Assembly (NCBI GenBank): GCA_019359095.1 | Contig: JAHHHZ010000017.1 | Coordinates: 186,001 to 250,000, forward strand | DNA: 64,000 bases | Direction: 5' to 3' | DNA from: Pleurocapsa minor HA4230-MV1 | GTDB lineage: Bacteria; Cyanobacteriota; Cyanobacteriia; Cyanobacteriales; Xenococcaceae | Translations under genes and position numbers: made by a program | Shown: positions 11,289 through 45,823 of the stretch, in pieces | Position numbering within the stretch: the stretch's first letter is position 1 | Layout of the letters: every line of letters starts with the position of its first letter | Notes under the pieces: generated by a model | What the model was told of the DNA's origin: nothing | The model's database searches: none | The model's input: the letters and a program-made list of their open reading frames with translations, nothing else

Positions 11289-12788
11289 ATGGTTAAAGTT
11301 AAACAGATATATATTTGCAATAATTGTGCCGCCGAATATAGCCAATGGTTTGGACTATGTAAGGAGTGCAACGAGTTTGGGACGATTTCTGAAGAACCCG
11401 TAGATGTATCTTCTGGGGGAGGAACTAGTCGTGGAGGATGGCAGTCGGGGACTCGCTCTAACAATAAGGTATCGGGCGCAGCTAAACCCAGGGTATCTTT
11501 GAAATTTTCGGAAATTAACAACGACGTTCAAGAAAGATTTCCTTCGGGTTATGGAGAATTCGATCGCGTCTTGGGTGGTGGGATAGTTCCTGGTTCTCTA
11601 GTGCTAATTGGTGGCGATCCTGGCATTGGTAAATCAACCCTGTTATTACAGGTGGCAAATAAGTTGTCATATACTCTGCCACGTATTCTTTATGTTTCCG
11701 CCGAGGAGTCGGGACAACAGGTAAAACTTAGAGCCTCCCGTTTAGATGTAGCAGATACGAAGACAGCAGCAGCCAACGGCAAGGAGAACGGCAAAGTACA
11801 CAAGAAAGATAATAACCTGTATGTCATGCCAGAAACGGATTTGGAAGAGATCTTGCGGGAACTGGAATCTTTAAAACCCCAAGTTGCCGTTATTGATAGT
11901 ATTCAAACATTACATTTTGCTGCCTTAACTTCTTCTCCTGGTTCTGTGGCACAGGTACGAGAGTGTACTTCAGCCTTAATGCAGGTGGGTAAAAGAGAAA
12001 ATATTACCCTGTTAATTGTCGGTCACGTTACTAAAGAAGGTGCGATCGCTGGGCCCAGAGTCTTGGAACATCTAGTCGATACAGTACTCTATTTTGAAGG
12101 CGATCGCTATGCCTCCCATCGTCTCTTACGTTCGGTCAAAAATCGTTTTGGGGCAACCCACGAAATAGGTATCTTTGAGATGGCAGAAGGGGGTTTAGTG
12201 GAGGTTGATAACCCCTCTGAGCTGTTTTTAGGTAATCGGGATGAAGCCTCTCCTGGTACTTCTGTAGTAGTCGCCTGTGAGGGAACTCGTCCAATTGTGG
12301 TTGAGATCCAGGCTTTAGTTAGTCCCACTAGCTATACTTCTCCTCGTCGCTCTACAACAGGCATTGATTATAATCGTCTTCAGCAAATTCTGGCAGTCTT
12401 AGAAAAAAGAGTGGGTGTACCTCTCTCTAAACTTGATGCCTATGTCGCTTCCGTTGGCGGTTTAGGCGTGGGTGAACCTGCTGCGGATTTAGGAGTGGCG
12501 ATCGCTATTGTGGCAAGTTTTCGCGATCGCGTCGTCGATCCACGCACTGTTTTAATCGGTGAGGTTGGCTTAGGGGGACAGGTGCGTCTAGTTTCGCAAA
12601 TGGAATTACGGCTGAAAGAAGCTGCTAAATTGGGGTTTAAAAAGGCGATCGTGCCTAAAGGTCAAAGTTTACCCGACGATCTTGGTTTAGAAGTTATTCC
12701 GATTTCTAAAGTCATTGATGCGATTATTGCTGCAATTCCCTCAGAGCGCTCGGGCGATTTTTCTGCCATGCCTGAAGAGGATGATTAA
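11289..12788 (+). CDS. radA: DNA repair protein RadA
   Basis: 500 residues from the ATG at 11289; an upstream in-frame TTG at 11160 would add a 43-residue non-homologous tail and was rejected. Domains in order: zinc finger CNNCAAEYSQWFGLCKEC, RecA-type core with Walker A GGDPGIGKST, the RadA-specific KNRFG motif, and a C-terminal Lon-like domain. RadA drives branch migration in recombinational repair. A Lys/Asn-rich loop (KENGKVHKKDNN) lies in the core. Its last quarter is copied in broken form at 13602-13776. Confidence 0.96.
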   Translation: MVKVKQIYICNNCAAEYSQWFGLCKECNEFGTISEEPVDVSSGGGTSRGGWQSGTRSNNKVSGAAKPRVSLKFSEINNDVQERFPSGYGEFDRVLGGGIVPGSLVLIGGDPGIGKSTLLLQVANKLSYTLPRILYVSAEESGQQVKLRASRLDVADTKTAAANGKENGKVHKKDNNLYVMPETDLEEILRELESLKPQVAVIDSIQTLHFAALTSSPGSVAQVRECTSALMQVGKRENITLLIVGHVTKEGAIAGPRVLEHLVDTVLYFEGDRYASHRLLRSVKNRFGATHEIGIFEMAEGGLVEVDNPSELFLGNRDEASPGTSVVVACEGTRPIVVEIQALVSPTSYTSPRRSTTGIDYNRLQQILAVLEKRVGVPLSKLDAYVASVGGLGVGEPAADLGVAIAIVASFRDRVVDPRTVLIGEVGLGGQVRLVSQMELRLKEAAKLGFKKAIVPKGQSLPDDLGLEVIPISKVIDAIIAAIPSERSGDFSAMPEEDD

Positions 12789-12862
12789 ACAAACGTAAAT
12801 ATTGATTACTGAGGGAAGCTTATAATTGTTGTACAGTCGATGTTTTCAGATCGATCTTGCAG

Positions 12863-13279
12863 ATGTCTAGAAAAGATACGTTTCACGATATTGTTCGCCA
12901 TGCTCTCGAAAAAAATGGCTGGACAATTACTCACGATCCACTGATACTCCGATATGAATTAGGCAATTTGTATATCGACTTAGGAGCTGAAAAAGTATTC
13001 GCAGCAGAACGAGCAGGGCAAAAAATTGCTGTCGAAGTCAAAAGCTTTTTAAAAAACTCTGCCGTCTCAGAATTTCATACTGCCCTTGGACAATTCATTA
13101 GCTATCGTGTTCTCTTAGCAGAGCAATACCCTGAATATGTTCTTTATCTAGCGGTGCCAATGGATGCTTATACTTCTTTCTTTGCCACCCAACTTGTCCA
13201 AGGTATCATCCATAGTCAACAATTAAAGTTAATTGTCTATAAACCCGAACAAGAGGTCATCGAGCAATGGCTGACTTAA
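12863..13279 (+). CDS. xisH: XisH family protein (element excision controlling factor)
   Basis: 138 residues from the ATG at 12863; a TTG two codons upstream is less likely. XisH was named for control of fdxN-element excision in Anabaena, but copies are scattered through cyanobacterial genomes without such an element. The fold is nuclease-like: YIDLGAEKVFAAE...KIAVEVKSF (about 36-62) has the D...ExK pattern of PD-(D/E)XK enzymes. It overlaps xisI by 13 bp, so the two are coupled. There is no fdxN element or recombinase beside it here. Confidence 0.92.
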   Translation: MSRKDTFHDIVRHALEKNGWTITHDPLILRYELGNLYIDLGAEKVFAAERAGQKIAVEVKSFLKNSAVSEFHTALGQFISYRVLLAEQYPEYVLYLAVPMDAYTSFFATQLVQGIIHSQQLKLIVYKPEQEVIEQWLT

Positions 13280-13602
13280 TTAAATATTCCGAAATCGTCC
13301 AGAAACTTCTTCAAGATTATGCTGCTTTGAGTGGTGACGATCCAACAGTTGAAACCGAGCTGATTTTTGATACGGTTAGAGATCGTTATCAATTAGTGCA
13401 TGTTGGTTGGCAGGGCGATCGCCGCATCTATGGTTGTATTTTACATCTCGATATCAGAGATGGGAAAATTTGGCTCCAACATAATGGCACGGAGAATGAT
13501 ATTGCAGCAGAACTGGTGGAAATGGGAGTTGCTAAGACCGATATTGTAATTGGTTTTCACTCTCCTTTTAAGCGTCAATTTACTGAATATGCAGTTGGTT
13601 AG
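13267..13602 (+). CDS. xisI: XisI family protein
   Basis: 111 residues, usual length for XisI. Core motifs: YAALSGDDPTVETELIFDTVRDRYQLVHVGW, RIYGCILHLDIRDGKIWLQHNGTE, and GFHSPFKRQFTEYAVG. XisI partners XisH; the joint role is not settled. The stop codon runs directly into a HIP1 octamer at 13602, and from that point the DNA is a copy of the radA 3' end. A broken second copy of this gene lies at 15415-15588. Confidence 0.93.
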   Translation: MADLIKYSEIVQKLLQDYAALSGDDPTVETELIFDTVRDRYQLVHVGWQGDRRIYGCILHLDIRDGKIWLQHNGTENDIAAELVEMGVAKTDIVIGFHSPFKRQFTEYAVG

Positions 13603-13776
13603 CGATCGCGTCGTCGATCCACGCACTGTCTTAATTGGTGAAGGGCGATCTTGGCTTGGAAGTTATTCCCATCTCTAAACTCATTGATGCGATTATTGCT
13701 GCAATTCTCTCAGAGCGATCGGGCAATTTTTCTGCTATGCCTGATGAGGATGATTAAACAAAAGTAATTATTGATT
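13602..13776 (+). pseudogene. Truncated duplicate of the radA 3' end
   Basis: Bases 13602-13644 repeat radA 12523-12565, and 13646-13776 repeat radA 12677-12808 including the stop codon and 3' flank, with a few substitutions. About 111 bp of radA are missing between the two parts. The copy cannot encode protein. xisHI is therefore bracketed by the true radA end on one side and this relic on the other. Confidence 0.88.
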
Positions 13777-13823
13777 GTTGAAGACCAACAGCATAAAAAA
13801 ACACAAGTTACTCATAAATAATG

Positions 13824-15413
13824 CTATTGTGCTAACGCCATTCCATCAGCACGAGGTTCTGACGCAGCCACAAATCCTCCAGCTTGCGACAAAATTATTT
13901 GACCTTTGCCAAACATCGTATATGGAGCAATTTGAATATTGTGACCCCGATCGCGCAGTTCCTGCACAATCCCAGGTGAAACTCCTGACTCAACTAACAC
14001 CTGATTGTCACTAATAAACCGCCAGCGAGGAGCATCAAGCGCTGCTTGAGGATTCATCCCATAGTCTGTTAAATTGAGAACCATCTGTAAGTGTCCTTGA
14101 GGCTGCATAGGGGCTCCCATTACCCCAAATGGCCCTAACGGGCGATCTCCTTCGGTAATAAATCCAGGAATAATTGTATGGAAAGGACGTTTAGAAGGCG
14201 CTACCTGATTTGGATGACTCTCTAACGTAAAGCCAGCACCGCGATTGTGAAGCGCAATTCCCGTCCCAGGAACCAGGATACCGCACCCGAAGCCCCTGTA
14301 GTTGGACTGAATTAAAGAAACCATCAGTTCTTGGTCAGCCGTTGCTAGATAGACAGTTCCTCCTGAAGCCAACCCAGGTTTTGCTAAGGAAAATGCTTGA
14401 TGTTCGATCGACTGTCTGCGCTTGGTAGCATAGGCTTTATCTAAAAGCTGTTCGCAAGATACTTCCATAAATCCTGGATCGCCAACGTGGCGGTATACAT
14501 CGGCAAAAGCTAGCTTCATCGCTTCGATTTGTTGGTGGTAGCTATAGGAAGACTCACGAGGAACAGAAGCGAGATCGAATCCTTCAAGAATATTGAGCGC
14601 CATTAACGCTGCAATTCCTTGAGTGTTGGGGGGAATCTCCCAGATCCGATATTGACGATATTGTGTAGAAATTGGATTTACCCAAAGCGATTCGTGATTA
14701 GCCAAATCGGTAGCGTTAAGTAAACCGCCTGTCTCTGTAGCAAACTCGACGATCTCTTCTGCCAGTCTGCCACGATAAAAACTTTCTCCATTGCTATCAG
14801 CAATTTCTTCGAGGGTTTGAGCATGGATAGGACTGCTCCAGACTTCGCCAGGATTGGGGGCGTGTCCTCGGGAAAAAAAGACCTGTTTAAATGGGACAAA
14901 TTGAGGAGCATCGAGTGATAAATAAATGTTTTCGGCTCGTTTCCAAGCTGCTGCAGTTACTGGAGACACAAGAAACCCCTCTTTAGCGTAGCGAATAGCT
15001 GGAGCAAATAACTGTTCAAACCGCAGCTTTCCCCAACGTTTCCATAGAGTCTGCCAAGCCGAAACTGCTCCTGGTACAGTCACTGCAAGCCAACTTAATT
15101 CGGGTACAGACTTTAACCCAGTAAAAGTCTCCAAGCTCATGGCTTGAGGACTTTTGCCTGAACCATTGAGTCCGTGTAGCTTACCATCCCAAACCAAAGC
15201 AAAAGCATCACCGCCAATACCGTTGGAGGTCGGTTCGACAACAGTCAGCGCGATTGCCGAGGCGATCGCAGCATCCACTGCATTACCGCCTGCCCAAAAC
15301 ATCTCTATTCCCGCTAGTGTCGCTAGAGACTGGCTAGTGGCTACAGCATAATGTTTTCCAAGTACGACTCGACGCTGAGAAGGGTAGGGATACTGAGTAA
15401 GATTGTATTTCAT
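13824..15413 (-). CDS. ggt: Gamma-glutamyltransferase family protein
   Basis: 529 residues, Ntn-hydrolase superfamily. The N-terminal part shows FWAGGNAVDAAIASAIALTVVEPTSNGIGGDAFALVW, typical of the family. The self-processing site is the GGTVYLATAD region, with its Thr as nucleophile. The late GAPMQPQGHLQMVLNLTDYGMNPQAALDAPRW motif is also present. Such enzymes act on glutathione or other gamma-glutamyl compounds; this one resembles the YwrD-like branch and no signal peptide is evident. The gene is bracketed by xisI and a broken xisI copy, and its leader lies in the latter. Confidence 0.9.
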   Translation of the reverse strand: MKYNLTQYPYPSQRRVVLGKHYAVATSQSLATLAGIEMFWAGGNAVDAAIASAIALTVVEPTSNGIGGDAFALVWDGKLHGLNGSGKSPQAMSLETFTGLKSVPELSWLAVTVPGAVSAWQTLWKRWGKLRFEQLFAPAIRYAKEGFLVSPVTAAAWKRAENIYLSLDAPQFVPFKQVFFSRGHAPNPGEVWSSPIHAQTLEEIADSNGESFYRGRLAEEIVEFATETGGLLNATDLANHESLWVNPISTQYRQYRIWEIPPNTQGIAALMALNILEGFDLASVPRESSYSYHQQIEAMKLAFADVYRHVGDPGFMEVSCEQLLDKAYATKRRQSIEHQAFSLAKPGLASGGTVYLATADQELMVSLIQSNYRGFGCGILVPGTGIALHNRGAGFTLESHPNQVAPSKRPFHTIIPGFITEGDRPLGPFGVMGAPMQPQGHLQMVLNLTDYGMNPQAALDAPRWRFISDNQVLVESGVSPGIVQELRDRGHNIQIAPYTMFGKGQIILSQAGGFVAASEPRADGMALAQ

Positions 15414-15414
15414 A

Positions 15415-15588
15415 TATAAACCTGAATTAAGAGGTCATCGAGCAATGGCTGACTTAATTAAATATTCCGAATGGTACGGAGAATGATATTGCAGCAGAAC
15501 TGGTAGAAATGGGAGTTGCTAAGACCGAATTGTAATTGGTTTTCACTCTCCTTTTAAGCGTCAATTTACCGAATATGTAGTTGGTTAG
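15415..15588 (+). pseudogene. Broken second copy of xisH end and xisI
   Basis: The sequence repeats the last codons of xisH and the xisI start (compare 13242-13293), then jumps to the equivalent of 13483-13602, ending at the same stop codon and HIP1 octamer. About 190 bp are deleted inside, and a 1-nt deletion near 15526 shifts the frame. The copy is dead. With 13242-13602 it forms a direct repeat around the radA relic and ggt. Confidence 0.88.
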
Positions 15589-15991
15589 CGATCGCCAGGA
15601 AGATGTAGTTAAAATGATGAAGCGAATCAGCATCAAAATGTGAAATATGTCTTTCACTAACTGAGGTCACAGACTCTCCCAATGCCAAAGACAGCTTTTG
15701 ATTAATTAGAGAATTATTTCCTCTTATTTTACGTCCGTCGGGGAATGTAACTACCAGGATATCTCCATCATATTCTGCTTGAAAATTAAATAAACCTTCA
15801 ATCTTGCAAAATCTGCGAGTGTTTTTTCCCCCACCAAATTTTCCTTGATTATTTTCAATTGCAAACTAGCGATCGCCAATAACTCCGCGTTTATTTACAG
15901 ACAATTCTCTACAAGATTCACCAAGCAAAGATTTGACAGGATAACGCCATAATCGCTTAATTTTTCCCTCAACTCCATTTTGGATGTTCAT
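15588..15991 (-). pseudogene. Decayed MOSC N-terminal domain protein
   Basis: Reading left from ATG 15991, the first 41 residues (GKIKRLWRYPVKSLLGE..., VNKRGVIGDR) are a clear MOSC N-terminal beta-barrel start. An in-frame TAG follows at 15866-15868. The same frame then continues with FAIENNQGKFGGGKNT, FPDGRKIRG and ISHFDADS, also MOSC-like, until it is cut at the HIP1 octamer 15588-15595 where the xisI relic begins. So there is a premature stop and loss of the C-terminal half. MOSC proteins handle sulfur in molybdenum-cofactor pathways; this one is not functional. Confidence 0.8.
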
Positions 15992-42437: not shown

Positions 42438-43577
42438 ATGGTCAATGTAGGGGGCGGCCCAGCTTTTATATTGGGTCTGTTTTTAGCCATAGCAGGAGCA
42501 GGATTTTTTTTCCTGCGGTCAGTTCGCCCAGAGTTGGCAAGGGATTATGATGTTTTCTTTGCTGCTGTAGGTTTACTCTGTGGCATTATTTTAATTTTCT
42601 ATGGTTGGCGGCTTGAGCCAGTTTTACAGTTTAGTCAATTTTTACTTACGGGAACGGCAGTTTTCTTTGCCTTTGAGAGTGTCAGAATGCGCGGTGTCTC
42701 AACAGAACAAGCTAGACGCAACACAGCCACAGTCGATCGCGATCGCCCCGTGAGTCGTACCAGGGTTTATACCGAGGCGGAATTAGATAAAATTGACCCC
42801 TATGACAATGTTTACGAAGGGGCTGAACCTAACTATAGTAGTCCTAGATTGAGGGGGTATGAAGACCCGCAACCCCGCTCTAGTCGTCGTCCTGCTAGCA
42901 GAAATAGAACTACACCAGCACCATCAGTTGATATTCGGGATGAACCTCGACGAAGACCAACTCGCAACCGTCCTGAAACGAGAGATTCGGTAGTTCGAGA
43001 ACCTCAAAATGATTACCCGAGCGGTACACCTCGCGATCGCTATGGTTACGAAGAACCCAATAGTCGTCCTCCCCGTCGCCGTCCAGCTACGCCAGCTAGG
43101 GATGCCTATGATGAATGGGATGATGCTCCCAAATCTGCTTCGCGTCCTCGTCGTCCTGCTACTCCCGCTGTAGATAGTTACGATCAACGAAATAATAACT
43201 CTGTTCGAGAGGATCGTTATGCTTCTCCCGCTCAATCTCCTGAACCTAGACGTAGACCAAACCCAGCGGATTTAGGTAGAAGCTATGAACCAGAAGCTGA
43301 TTACCCTGAAAATGATTTAGGCAGTAGCTACGATAATTCTGACTCAGGCAGAAGTTATGATGATGAACAAAAGCCGATTCCTGGAGATTATGTTGTCGAT
43401 TATCAGCCTCTAGAAGATGTGGGGACTGGTTATTCAGATGATTATGATGACTCTGAAGGAAATAATTATGATGATTACGATGAGTCAGAAAGTGACTCTG
43501 AGCAAGACGGCTACAACGACTATGACGATCGGCCAGAGCGTCGTAAACCAATCAACTTGAATAACGATTACGACTAA
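42438..43577 (+). CDS. ycf66: Ycf66 family protein
   Basis: 379 residues. The first 90 residues hold three or so membrane helices and match Ycf66 (FLRSVRPELARDYDVFFAAVGLLCGIILIFYGWRLEPVLQFSQFLLTGTAVFFAFES). The rest is a long disordered tail rich in Arg, Pro, Asp, Tyr and Ser, with repeated PRRRPATPA-like and DDYD-like runs. Function unknown; found in cyanobacteria and some plastids, so probably thylakoid-related. Confidence 0.92.
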   Translation: MVNVGGGPAFILGLFLAIAGAGFFFLRSVRPELARDYDVFFAAVGLLCGIILIFYGWRLEPVLQFSQFLLTGTAVFFAFESVRMRGVSTEQARRNTATVDRDRPVSRTRVYTEAELDKIDPYDNVYEGAEPNYSSPRLRGYEDPQPRSSRRPASRNRTTPAPSVDIRDEPRRRPTRNRPETRDSVVREPQNDYPSGTPRDRYGYEEPNSRPPRRRPATPARDAYDEWDDAPKSASRPRRPATPAVDSYDQRNNNSVREDRYASPAQSPEPRRRPNPADLGRSYEPEADYPENDLGSSYDNSDSGRSYDDEQKPIPGDYVVDYQPLEDVGTGYSDDYDDSEGNNYDDYDESESDSEQDGYNDYDDRPERRKPINLNNDYD

Positions 43578-43611
43578 TCGATCATTCGTTACAAGTTAAA
43601 AACTACTACAG

Positions 43612-45466
43612 CTAAATTTGATAAGCTTGAGCTTGCATTTGCCAAAGATAAGCATATTCTTCTTGCTGCTGTAACAATTGTTGATGAGTTCCTTGTTCTA
43701 TTAGTTTGCCTGCTTTTAAAACTATAATCCGATCGCACATAGAGACAGAAGCCAGACGATGAGTAACTAAAATTGCTGTTTTACCTCTGACTAATTCTGA
43801 GAAACGGCTGTAGATTTCGTATTCACTGCGAGGATTTAAAGCTGCCGTCGGTTCATCTAAGACTAGTAGCTGCGCTTGTTGTTCACGGATAAAAGCTCTG
43901 GCGATCCGTAGGGTACACCCATTCGGGTGCAAGCGCTTGGAGCGTAATCGCAATTTTTTGCCATTCTCCTCCAGAAAGTTCTGTGCCATCAAATTGCTTC
44001 CCTAACAAGGTTTGGTATTGGTGTTCTAGGCGATCGATCTTGTCGGCAATTCCCGCTTTTGTGGCAGCTAGTTTGAGTTTAGGTAGTTTTTCTAAAGCGG
44101 TTAAATCTCCCAAGGCAATATTTTCGCCAACGGTTAAACTATAGCGACAGAAATCTTGAAACACTACTGCTATTTGTTGTCGCCACCGAGCTAAATCTAG
44201 CTGTTTGAGGTCGATTCCATCTACTAAAATTCTGCCTCTACTAGGATCGTAAAGTCGAGCTAAAAGTTTAATAATGGTGGTTTTTCCTGCGCCATTTTCC
44301 CCCACTAAAGCTAATGTTTCACCTGCTCTAAGAGTAAAAGAAACTTGCTCTAATGCTAGTCTGCCATCGGGATAAGCAAAAGATACATTATCAAAGACAA
44401 TTGCTGAGGCGATCGGGTTGGGGACATTTTTATCACTAACAGTAAGATCCATAGTCGGTTGACTGCCTAAAAACTTATACAAACGCTCCATAAAAATTAG
44501 AGATTGTTGCAAATTCAAAAATTCCGCAACTAAAACCTGCAAGCTGGTTTGAATCGAATTTAAAGCTTGAATGAATAGTAAAACATTTCCTGCGGTGATC
44601 TGTTTATTTACTGCTCGTATGATAACTCGATAAAAGGCGATCGCACTACCCCCAACACTTAAAATTTCCCAAATGCTCAAACTCAAAGCCTTTTTACCTC
44701 GTATCTTACGCATCGCTTGATATTTATCGTCAAAAGCTTCTTGATAGCGTTGCTTAAATAATGAACCTAATCCAAATAGACGAACTTCTTTGGCATAAGT
44801 ATCGGTTAAAAGTACGGAAGAATAATATTTCATCCTGCGAGATTGAGAGCTTTTTGATGACATTGTTGTCCAAAGATCCCATTGAACCTTAAAAGTGAAA
44901 TAAACCTGGGGGAATGATGTAGCTAAAAGTAAGAGTGGAATCCACCAAGCAAGAGGAAATAGTAAAACCAACATCGTAATGAGATTGAGCAAATATTGAC
45001 AGCCATGACCAAAAAATAGAATTAGATTAAAGGGCTGTTGATCTACTTCTTCTTCAATTAATTGAATTTCATTATAAAAATTAGCGTCCTCAAAATAAAT
45101 CAAATCGACAAAACTATTAGCTTTATTAAGAATTGATAGATTAATATGTGCCGTAAGTTTTTCAATAGTATTTCTCAGACTAGCATCATAAAATGGCTCT
45201 AGAAGACTTTGTACTAAAATTGCTGTGACCCAAGCAATAACTAGAGAAAACAAACTCTGATAATTGTCCAGCTGCTGAGAGCTTAAACCACCTGCTACGG
45301 CATCAACTATTTGTTTACTAATCCAGATACTAATCCCAGGAGAGACTCCTCGTACCAACATAGTAAAAGTTATCAAAGCAACTTCTTTGGGAGCAGCTTG
45401 CCAAATTAATGGCAAAGAACGAAGCAAAATTTGGCTGTATTTAGCGAATAAATTGAGATATTGCAT
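43612..45466 (-). pseudogene. ABC exporter (permease-ATPase) frameshifted by a 43-bp insertion
   Basis: The gene starts at ATG 45466 with a six-helix ABC membrane domain, then an ATPase domain with Walker A VGENGAGKTT and signature LSGGEWQKIAI. At 43906-43948 a 43-bp palindromic sequence interrupts what would be a HIP1 octamer; the frame then runs to a stop at 43883. The rest (ARAFIREQQAQLLVLDEPTAALNPRSE..., LVTHRLASVSMC) continues to 43612 in another frame. Removing 43 bp leaves 1812 bp, exactly 604 codons. Walker B and the switch His are therefore lost in the protein. Confidence 0.92.
43906..43948. mobile_element. 43-bp palindromic insertion inside the ABC exporter gene
   Basis: The insert splits GGCGATCGC, leaving GGCGAT on one side and CGC on the other, with a 3-bp GAT/ATC duplication at its edges, so the unit itself is about 40 bp. 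It has a hairpin core ACACCC-ATTC-GGGTGC (one G-T pair) and a second AAGCGCTT palindrome. The CCGTAGGG word at one edge recurs, inverted, in the mntP spacer at 18843-18850. No coding capacity. Confidence 0.8.
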
Positions 45467-45823
45467 TTATTTTAAACTTTAAAACTCAAACTCGATTCCG
45501 CAATTAGATACAAAATAGATCTCTTTCAGCTTTAATATCTACGTCTTTTTGTAACTAATAAATATTTAAATATTAGAGGGGTGCAGGAGCTACTTTATGG
45601 CTGCAATATTGTACTTAATGAACCTATAAATGTAAATTACTAACAGTCACAATATTATTTTTGCGAGTAAGTGGTAACTTGCTCCGTTTTTTTGGCTGGA
45701 TTAGCAATTTATTATGTATTTGCGTAACATGGATGTCAAAATTGCTAAAAAAACTTAAGATAATGTTTTTTAACCAAAACTTTGCTGTAAACCTAAACAA
45801 TAAGCAGAATTTTGGTATTTTTT
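45467..45823. other. 357-bp divergent promoter region
   Basis: Spacer between the broken ABC exporter and glpK. Two tiny frames begin with ATG (about 45597 and 45714) but are under 15 codons and lack ribosome binding sites. No repeat recognised. Confidence 0.4.

Follow-up and report, generated by a model that had tools for sequence, protein, structure and literature searches.

Probable recent insertion of a hairpin-built small dispersed repeat into a HIP1 octamer of a cyanobacterial ABC exporter gene

Related small repeats and their targets

Among the short repeats of cyanobacteria, those closest to the element considered here are the SDRs of Nostoc punctiforme and its relatives, which by the account of Elhai et al. 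are reportedly 21-27 nt long, carry compensatory changes in their hairpins and show nesting; their families are said to be essentially confined to one subgroup, and SDR5 to be found only within HIP1. REPs are mostly extragenic, and we know of none that targets HIP1. One article describes SDR5 as a very small repeat whose insertion point in HIP1 lies precisely between nucleotides 3 and 4 (PMC4390886, citing Elhai 2008, Genome Res 18:1484). SDRs are mentioned beside REP-like repeats in passages of three other articles (PMC3116915, PMC2884548, PMC3733652), and a passage of the last of these gives MITEs, naming Nezha, a length of 70-300 bp and terminal inverted repeats of 15-30 bp.

In what follows, the window is the whole stretch of 64,000 nucleotides from Pleurocapsa minor HA4230-MV1 that was analysed. 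The element found in it shares with SDR5 an insertion exactly between nucleotides 3 and 4 of HIP1 and hairpins with compensatory changes (reportedly, on the SDR5 side), recent mobility being supported here by empty sites. It differs in length, measuring 41 nt and, in its modular copies, as much as about 200 nt against the 21-27 nt reported for SDRs, and in distribution, as its family occurs in Hyellaceae-type cyanobacteria whereas SDRs reportedly belong essentially to one subgroup. Its behaviour is that of SDR5, with a greater length and growth through added modules, and we regard it as a longer, modular variant belonging to Hyellaceae-type cyanobacteria; we keep it apart from SDR5 because of the misfit in length, the comparison with SDR5 being one of description and not of sequence. 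With REPINs, and with REPs and their RAYTs, the element has in common that it is short, palindromic, non-autonomous, dispersed and probably moved in trans, but the inserted block is without an inverted REP doublet with a GTAG-type tag: by reading, GTAG occurs in it once (43908-43911, plus strand), with no inverted doublet. Cyanobacterial MITEs such as Nezha are likewise non-autonomous, dispersed and devoid of coding capacity; in contrast to their terminal repeats of 15-30 bp, no terminal inverted repeat was read in the window element beyond the split octamer, where only the target's GCGAT/ATCGC is inverted.

Among the matches listed in searches of open papers, none described the window element or HIP1-targeted repeats in Hyellaceae. 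The element is among the smallest mobile DNA described and makes a good natural example: a definite insertion, orthologues in which the site is empty, the disruption of a gene and, elsewhere, a different element in that octamer of the same gene render target choice and mechanism testable. The case also suggests that, within genes, a high density of HIP1 comes at a mutational cost.

The split octamer of the exporter gene and its empty counterparts

On the plus strand at 43900-43951, GGCGAT (43900-43905) and CGC (43949-43951) are separated by 43 bp (43906-43948), as the original prediction had read them, and this block splits a HIP1 octamer, GCGATCGC, within a minus-strand ABC exporter gene recognised by its matches to Pfam PF00664 and PF00005. 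The gene is open as two pieces (Table 1), which align with four orthologues of 603 residues (L002-L005), the first over residues 1-506 and the second over 507-603, with 0 gaps, and are identical to the closest of these, in genome G005, at 454/506 and 91/97 positions. Because of this gapless collinearity the block is an insertion that shifts the frame and therefore splits the exporter ATPase. The 506-codon piece carries what we take to be Walker A and the LSGGE signature, and the 97-codon piece presumably holds Walker B and the H-loop; since the former are cut off from the latter, the exporter is, from its sequence, most likely inactive. HIP1 octamers are dense in the window, at 80 against 0.49 expected, and the probability of a random break exactly between nucleotides 3 and 4 of an octamer is 0.00125.

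Table 1. Positions of the inserted element, its hairpins, the halves of its target and the exporter pieces in the window
Feature	Position	Strand	Basis
Inserted block (41-nt hairpin element plus AT)	43906..43948	-	absent, flanks abutting, in 5/9 loci; pieces collinear with four orthologues
41-nt element proper, between two AT copies	43906..43946	-	boundary inferred from comparison of right ends
Hairpin 1, CGCT-CCA-AGCG	43934..43944	-	other copies GGCT/AGCC, CGC/GCG, CCC/GGG
Hairpin 2, CACCC-GAAT-GGGTG	43916..43929	-	other copies TACCC/GGGTA
Possible hairpin 3, CC-TAC-GG, abutting ATCGC	43906..43912	-	inspection; clear in other copies: CGC/GCG, CCC/GGG, GCC/GGC
GCGAT, one side of the split HIP1 octamer	43901..43905	.	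sequence; octamer intact in relatives
ATCGC, other side of the split HIP1 octamer	43947..43951	.	sequence; octamer intact in relatives
5' piece of the broken ABC exporter gene, 506 codons	43949..45466	-	PF00664, PF00005; orthologue alignment
Out-of-frame 3' piece of the exporter gene, 97 codons and stop	43612..43905	-	orthologue alignment

A comparison with orthologous exporters, set beforehand as the check for an empty site, found the block in frame in none and the octamer empty in five relatives. In these five of nine loci (L002 in G005, L003 in G019, L004 in G003, L005 in G017 and L007 in G004) the flanks of the block, each side taken separately, abut without a gap over an intact GCGATCGC, so that the claim that its removal restores both octamer and frame is borne out by these relatives and by the collinear 603-residue orthologues. 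As for the other four loci, L006 has another insert, L039 is collinear without the octamer, L042, a weak match, shows no insert and no octamer, and no alignment was obtained for L047. The insert is derived, since the site is empty in three genomes of the same genus (G003, G004, G005) as well as in genomes of two further genera (G017, G019). The exporter gene is open in four of the five, the match in G004 falling in two frames for another cause. In the window, the exporter pieces show no lesion besides the insert and have dN/dS values of 0.17 and 0.11 against G005, which makes the insertion young relative to the divergence from that genome.

Genome G014, of another genus, has in the same octamer of the orthologous exporter (L006) a different insert of 25 bp, made up by reading of two hairpins, CTCGC-GAA-GCGAG and CAC-TGC-GTG, which likewise shifts the frame after residue 506; this exporter is a pseudogene, as it has a further frameshift near residue 205. 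Because genomes whose exporter is closer to that of the window are empty at the site, the two different elements most likely entered the octamer independently.

On these alignments the block is very probably a small dispersed repeat, non-autonomous and built of hairpins, which targets the HIP1 octamer and was inserted recently; this micro-element insertion is real, recent and HIP1-specific, and the evidence for it is unusually clean. The original prediction had gone further in calling the block direct evidence of mobility. Mobility finds support in the dispersed copies, in two further empty sites and in the different element of G014, but it is inferred from comparison.

Hairpins, forms and junctions of the repeat family

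Several changes in the stems preserve pairing among copies: CGCT/AGCG is replaced by GGCT/AGCC and CCC/GGG, CACCC/GGGTG by TACCC/GGGTA, and CGC/GCG by CCC/GGG and GCC/GGC. Because such variants keep their pairing, these changes, judged by inspection, support selection acting on hairpin shape; the stems are broken in some copies (L072, L081, L132). The predicted fold of the window copy stands out moderately against shuffled sequences (z -2.8 as RNA of the minus strand, -1.1 for the plus strand). Its third hairpin is weak, lying outside the predicted fold, with a stem scan picking a different pairing, and in L062 this hairpin is not formed. Rfam families gave 0 matches at gathering score in 43500-45600, and an RNA gene is rejected on that ground as the identity of the block.

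The original prediction had proposed a search of the unit in the same genome and its relatives, and copies were indeed recovered. With no flank in the pattern and one mismatch allowed, the left end TASGCTCCAAGCSCTTG gave 18 matches in 27 family genomes (13 of the genus and 14 others), all of them in this genus and none in the 14 genomes outside it, and a reversed-pattern control gave 0. One match (G009) is a stray, and the other 17 are spread over 6 of the 13 genus genomes. These left ends are preceded by GAT in 16/17 cases and by the full GCGAT in 10/17, GAT preceding 2.1% of random positions; the counts treat copies as independent, and because some copies are related to each other (L218/L221 and L222/L231), binomial figures overstate the case. 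Earlier searches with the flank in the pattern found 17 left ends and 4 right ends; two of the searches of this kind gave one reversed-pattern control match each in this genome. Copy number is low: the genome of the window has three left ends and at least eight HIP1-ended elements once variants are counted, the best other match of the block in it reaching 89% identity over 55 bp. An exact left-end scan of genome contigs added four stretches in two MAGs, Myxosarcina sp. and Hyellaceae CSU_1_1, and a plasmid search with the window element returned one record, Chondrocystis sp. NIES-4102, with a 22-base match.

Five compact copies, with 42-44 bp inserted, are known: that of the window, G000:C6, and three that came to light as variants, namely G004:C377 and a pair in G010. 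Their layout is GCGAT, TA, a hairpin, CTTG, a hairpin, TA, a third small hairpin and ATCGC. This third hairpin is clear in G000:C6 and in one copy of G010, and weak in the copies of the window and of G004; the other copy of G010 has none. The 42-bp copy G002:C99 has a different middle. Longer copies, with up to 198 bp inserted, keep the same ends and have extra hairpin modules between them, for example CCTAAAGGA. In G000, G002 and G012 such inner modules occur far more often, mostly with other ends; HIP1 ends were found in four of 20 module stretches read in the genome of the window (L131, L132, L135 and L150), L150 being among the 20 as a stretch chosen from an earlier match. L150 itself (G000:C5:29350-29900) is a HIP1-bounded element of 134 bp, apparently inside a recombinase-like reading frame. 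In L133 and L145-L148 (G000), the CCTAAAGGA hairpin modules sit within short repeats of the CAATGA(A/G) type; SDRs of Nostoc are similarly placed in heptamer arrays. Two similar genes of G012 (L084 on C28 and L086 on C79) have elements at the same place with differing inner modules, which points either to duplication of one insert that was later altered internally or to two separate hits on the site.

Shorter HIP1-bounded inserts of 25-27 bp with two hairpins were found in L044, L234 (a Nostocales plasmid of Sphaerospermopsis), L236 (Chondrocystis), L197 and L006, a plasmid search with the short form L044 giving seven records, of which three were read. They share with the window family the octamer, the junctions and the hairpin-hairpin layout, and all except L006 likewise start with TACGCT or TGCGCT. 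They differ from the window element in being shorter and in having two hairpins, and their comparison with empty sites covers L006 only. These inserts may be SDR5 itself.

The ends of the block carry a GAT repeat, which the original prediction had taken for a 3-bp target duplication. The repeat is there, but a length of 3 bp is doubtful, and the repeat is better read as a duplication of probably 2 bp (AT) at most. In 5/26 tabulated copies, C or A instead of G precedes the right ATCGC, which counters a firm 3-bp GAT duplication; the 26 are the copies whose right end can be read (that of a 27th, L131, is decayed), with ends located by motifs entered copy by copy, and do not form an unbiased sample, as the set of 17 left ends does. 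Short forms of 25-27 bp account for three of the five, and long forms (L079 and L081) for the other two. In four of them the base in question pairs within the terminal hairpin, GCC-GAA-GGC three times and TGGC-TTC-GCCA once, and the fifth, L081, looks decayed. Because the non-G base mostly pairs in this way, the third base (ATC/GAT) is probably part of the last hairpin of the element, with at most AT duplicated. An AT that was duplicated and an AT borne by the element both fit, since every target read here has AT.

Further insertion sites and mode of insertion

Insertion sites were compared at six places, two of them exact (the window gene and G012:C28), and the comparisons show that elements of this kind have also gone into further HIP1 or near-HIP1 sites within the genus. 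For the 147-bp element of G012:C28, the empty site in G008 is ACGATCGC (CGATCGC), with 7/8 octamer bases, the G012 copy also differing from G008 by a second small insertion downstream. The 91-bp element of G000:C35 has an octamer at the homologous place in G005 and G002, where the bases just to the right have diverged. In a gene of G012 which we take to be PPK2-like (L082 about 1455-1522, G012:C96), the paralogue has the octamer and the copy with the element is without about 225 bp beside it; judged against the paralogue, the missing stretch lies between two GCGAT-type sites. G000:C6 has no alignable empty site in G002 or G005. The octamer is absent from the empty copies of a G012 gene that is presumably of IS1 type; at L085, where GCAAT on the left faces GATCGC on the right, a difference that might have favoured a mechanism without duplication, the empty site is not reconstructable from IS1-type copies.

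Comparison places the element's point of entry into GCGATCGC between nucleotides 3 and 4, or equivalently 5 and 6, with AT left on both sides. As it contains no gene, an enzyme supplied in trans would recognise its hairpins, with single-stranded DNA or an RNA copy as the probable substrate, and would cut at or near GATC inside HIP1; the longer copies would probably have arisen by nested insertion or by expansion of hairpin modules between fixed ends. We tentatively extend this to a broader proposal, possible though not favoured, in which hairpin-bounded micro-elements of about 23 to 200 nt, a broad class as yet without a name, would share HIP1 octamers as their landing site across several cyanobacterial orders. 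A single conserved enzyme, belonging to the host or itself mobile, would recognise hairpin-bounded DNA or RNA and insert it at the GATC core, with the result that different elements hit even the same octamer of one gene in different genera.

Two readings would remove the insertion altogether, and both appear very improbable. An error of sequencing or assembly, a concern that the original prediction itself had raised, is at odds with a block that bears the end sequences of a family present in other assemblies, that has just the 89% match over 55 bp as its best counterpart in its own genome, and that lies exactly inside an octamer which is empty in relatives; we reject it on the family ends and the exact placement. 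That the block is ancestral and was lost from the relatives by precise excision might be suggested by the insert of G014 at the same place, but this insert is unlike it in length and sequence, and five exact losses, in G003, G004, G005, G017 and G019, four of them with an open gene, are less economical than one gain. The five empty relatives and the dissimilar G014 insert lead us to set aside such a loss as scarcely credible.

Insertion of the repeat thus being preferred, the remaining readings concern how it was achieved. On one reading a Y1 (HUH) transposase, of IS200/IS605 or RAYT type, would move a single-stranded element and insert it 3' of GCGAT; the target would not be duplicated, and the GAT/AT on the right would be the end of the element itself. 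This competes with other enzymes and not with the insertion itself, and we regard it as a plausible candidate held with some reserve. It accords with the small hairpins near the element ends, with the constancy of the left GAT (16/17), with REPINs and a RAYT reported for Nostoc punctiforme in a passage of PMC3116915, and with a single case in Sphaerospermopsis in which a HIP1-bounded short insert adjoins an annotated IS200-family transposase. Among the copies read, which come from no systematic search, none has a transposase gene between these ends, however, and the symmetric AT on both sides equally fits a 2-bp staggered cut. Less likely, in our judgement, is that HIP1 octamers are hot spots of breakage whose repair takes up hairpin DNA or RNA, the repeat having no transposition machinery of its own. 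The element at the junction of the PPK2-like copy, with about 225 bp missing beside the octamer, would suit such repair, as would the use of HIP1 by quite different hairpin modules, but fixed ends and exact AT junctions at sites free of loss look like a directed reaction.

Two genes of G010 that we take to be of IS1 type (L189 and L197, the latter overlapped by L216) have a 27-bp two-hairpin HIP1 insert in frame, which adds nine residues to 133-codon open frames; since two such genes of one genome bear the in-frame insert, the element may have been carried along inside the transposase gene. Elsewhere in the window, nearby duplications lie within 12520-15595, pairing 12520-12562 with 13599-13641, 12677-12812 with 13646-13781, 13251-13293 with 15429-15471 and 13483-13609 with 15470-15595; the duplicated pieces are presumably a radA-like 3' end and an xisH/xisI-like pair.
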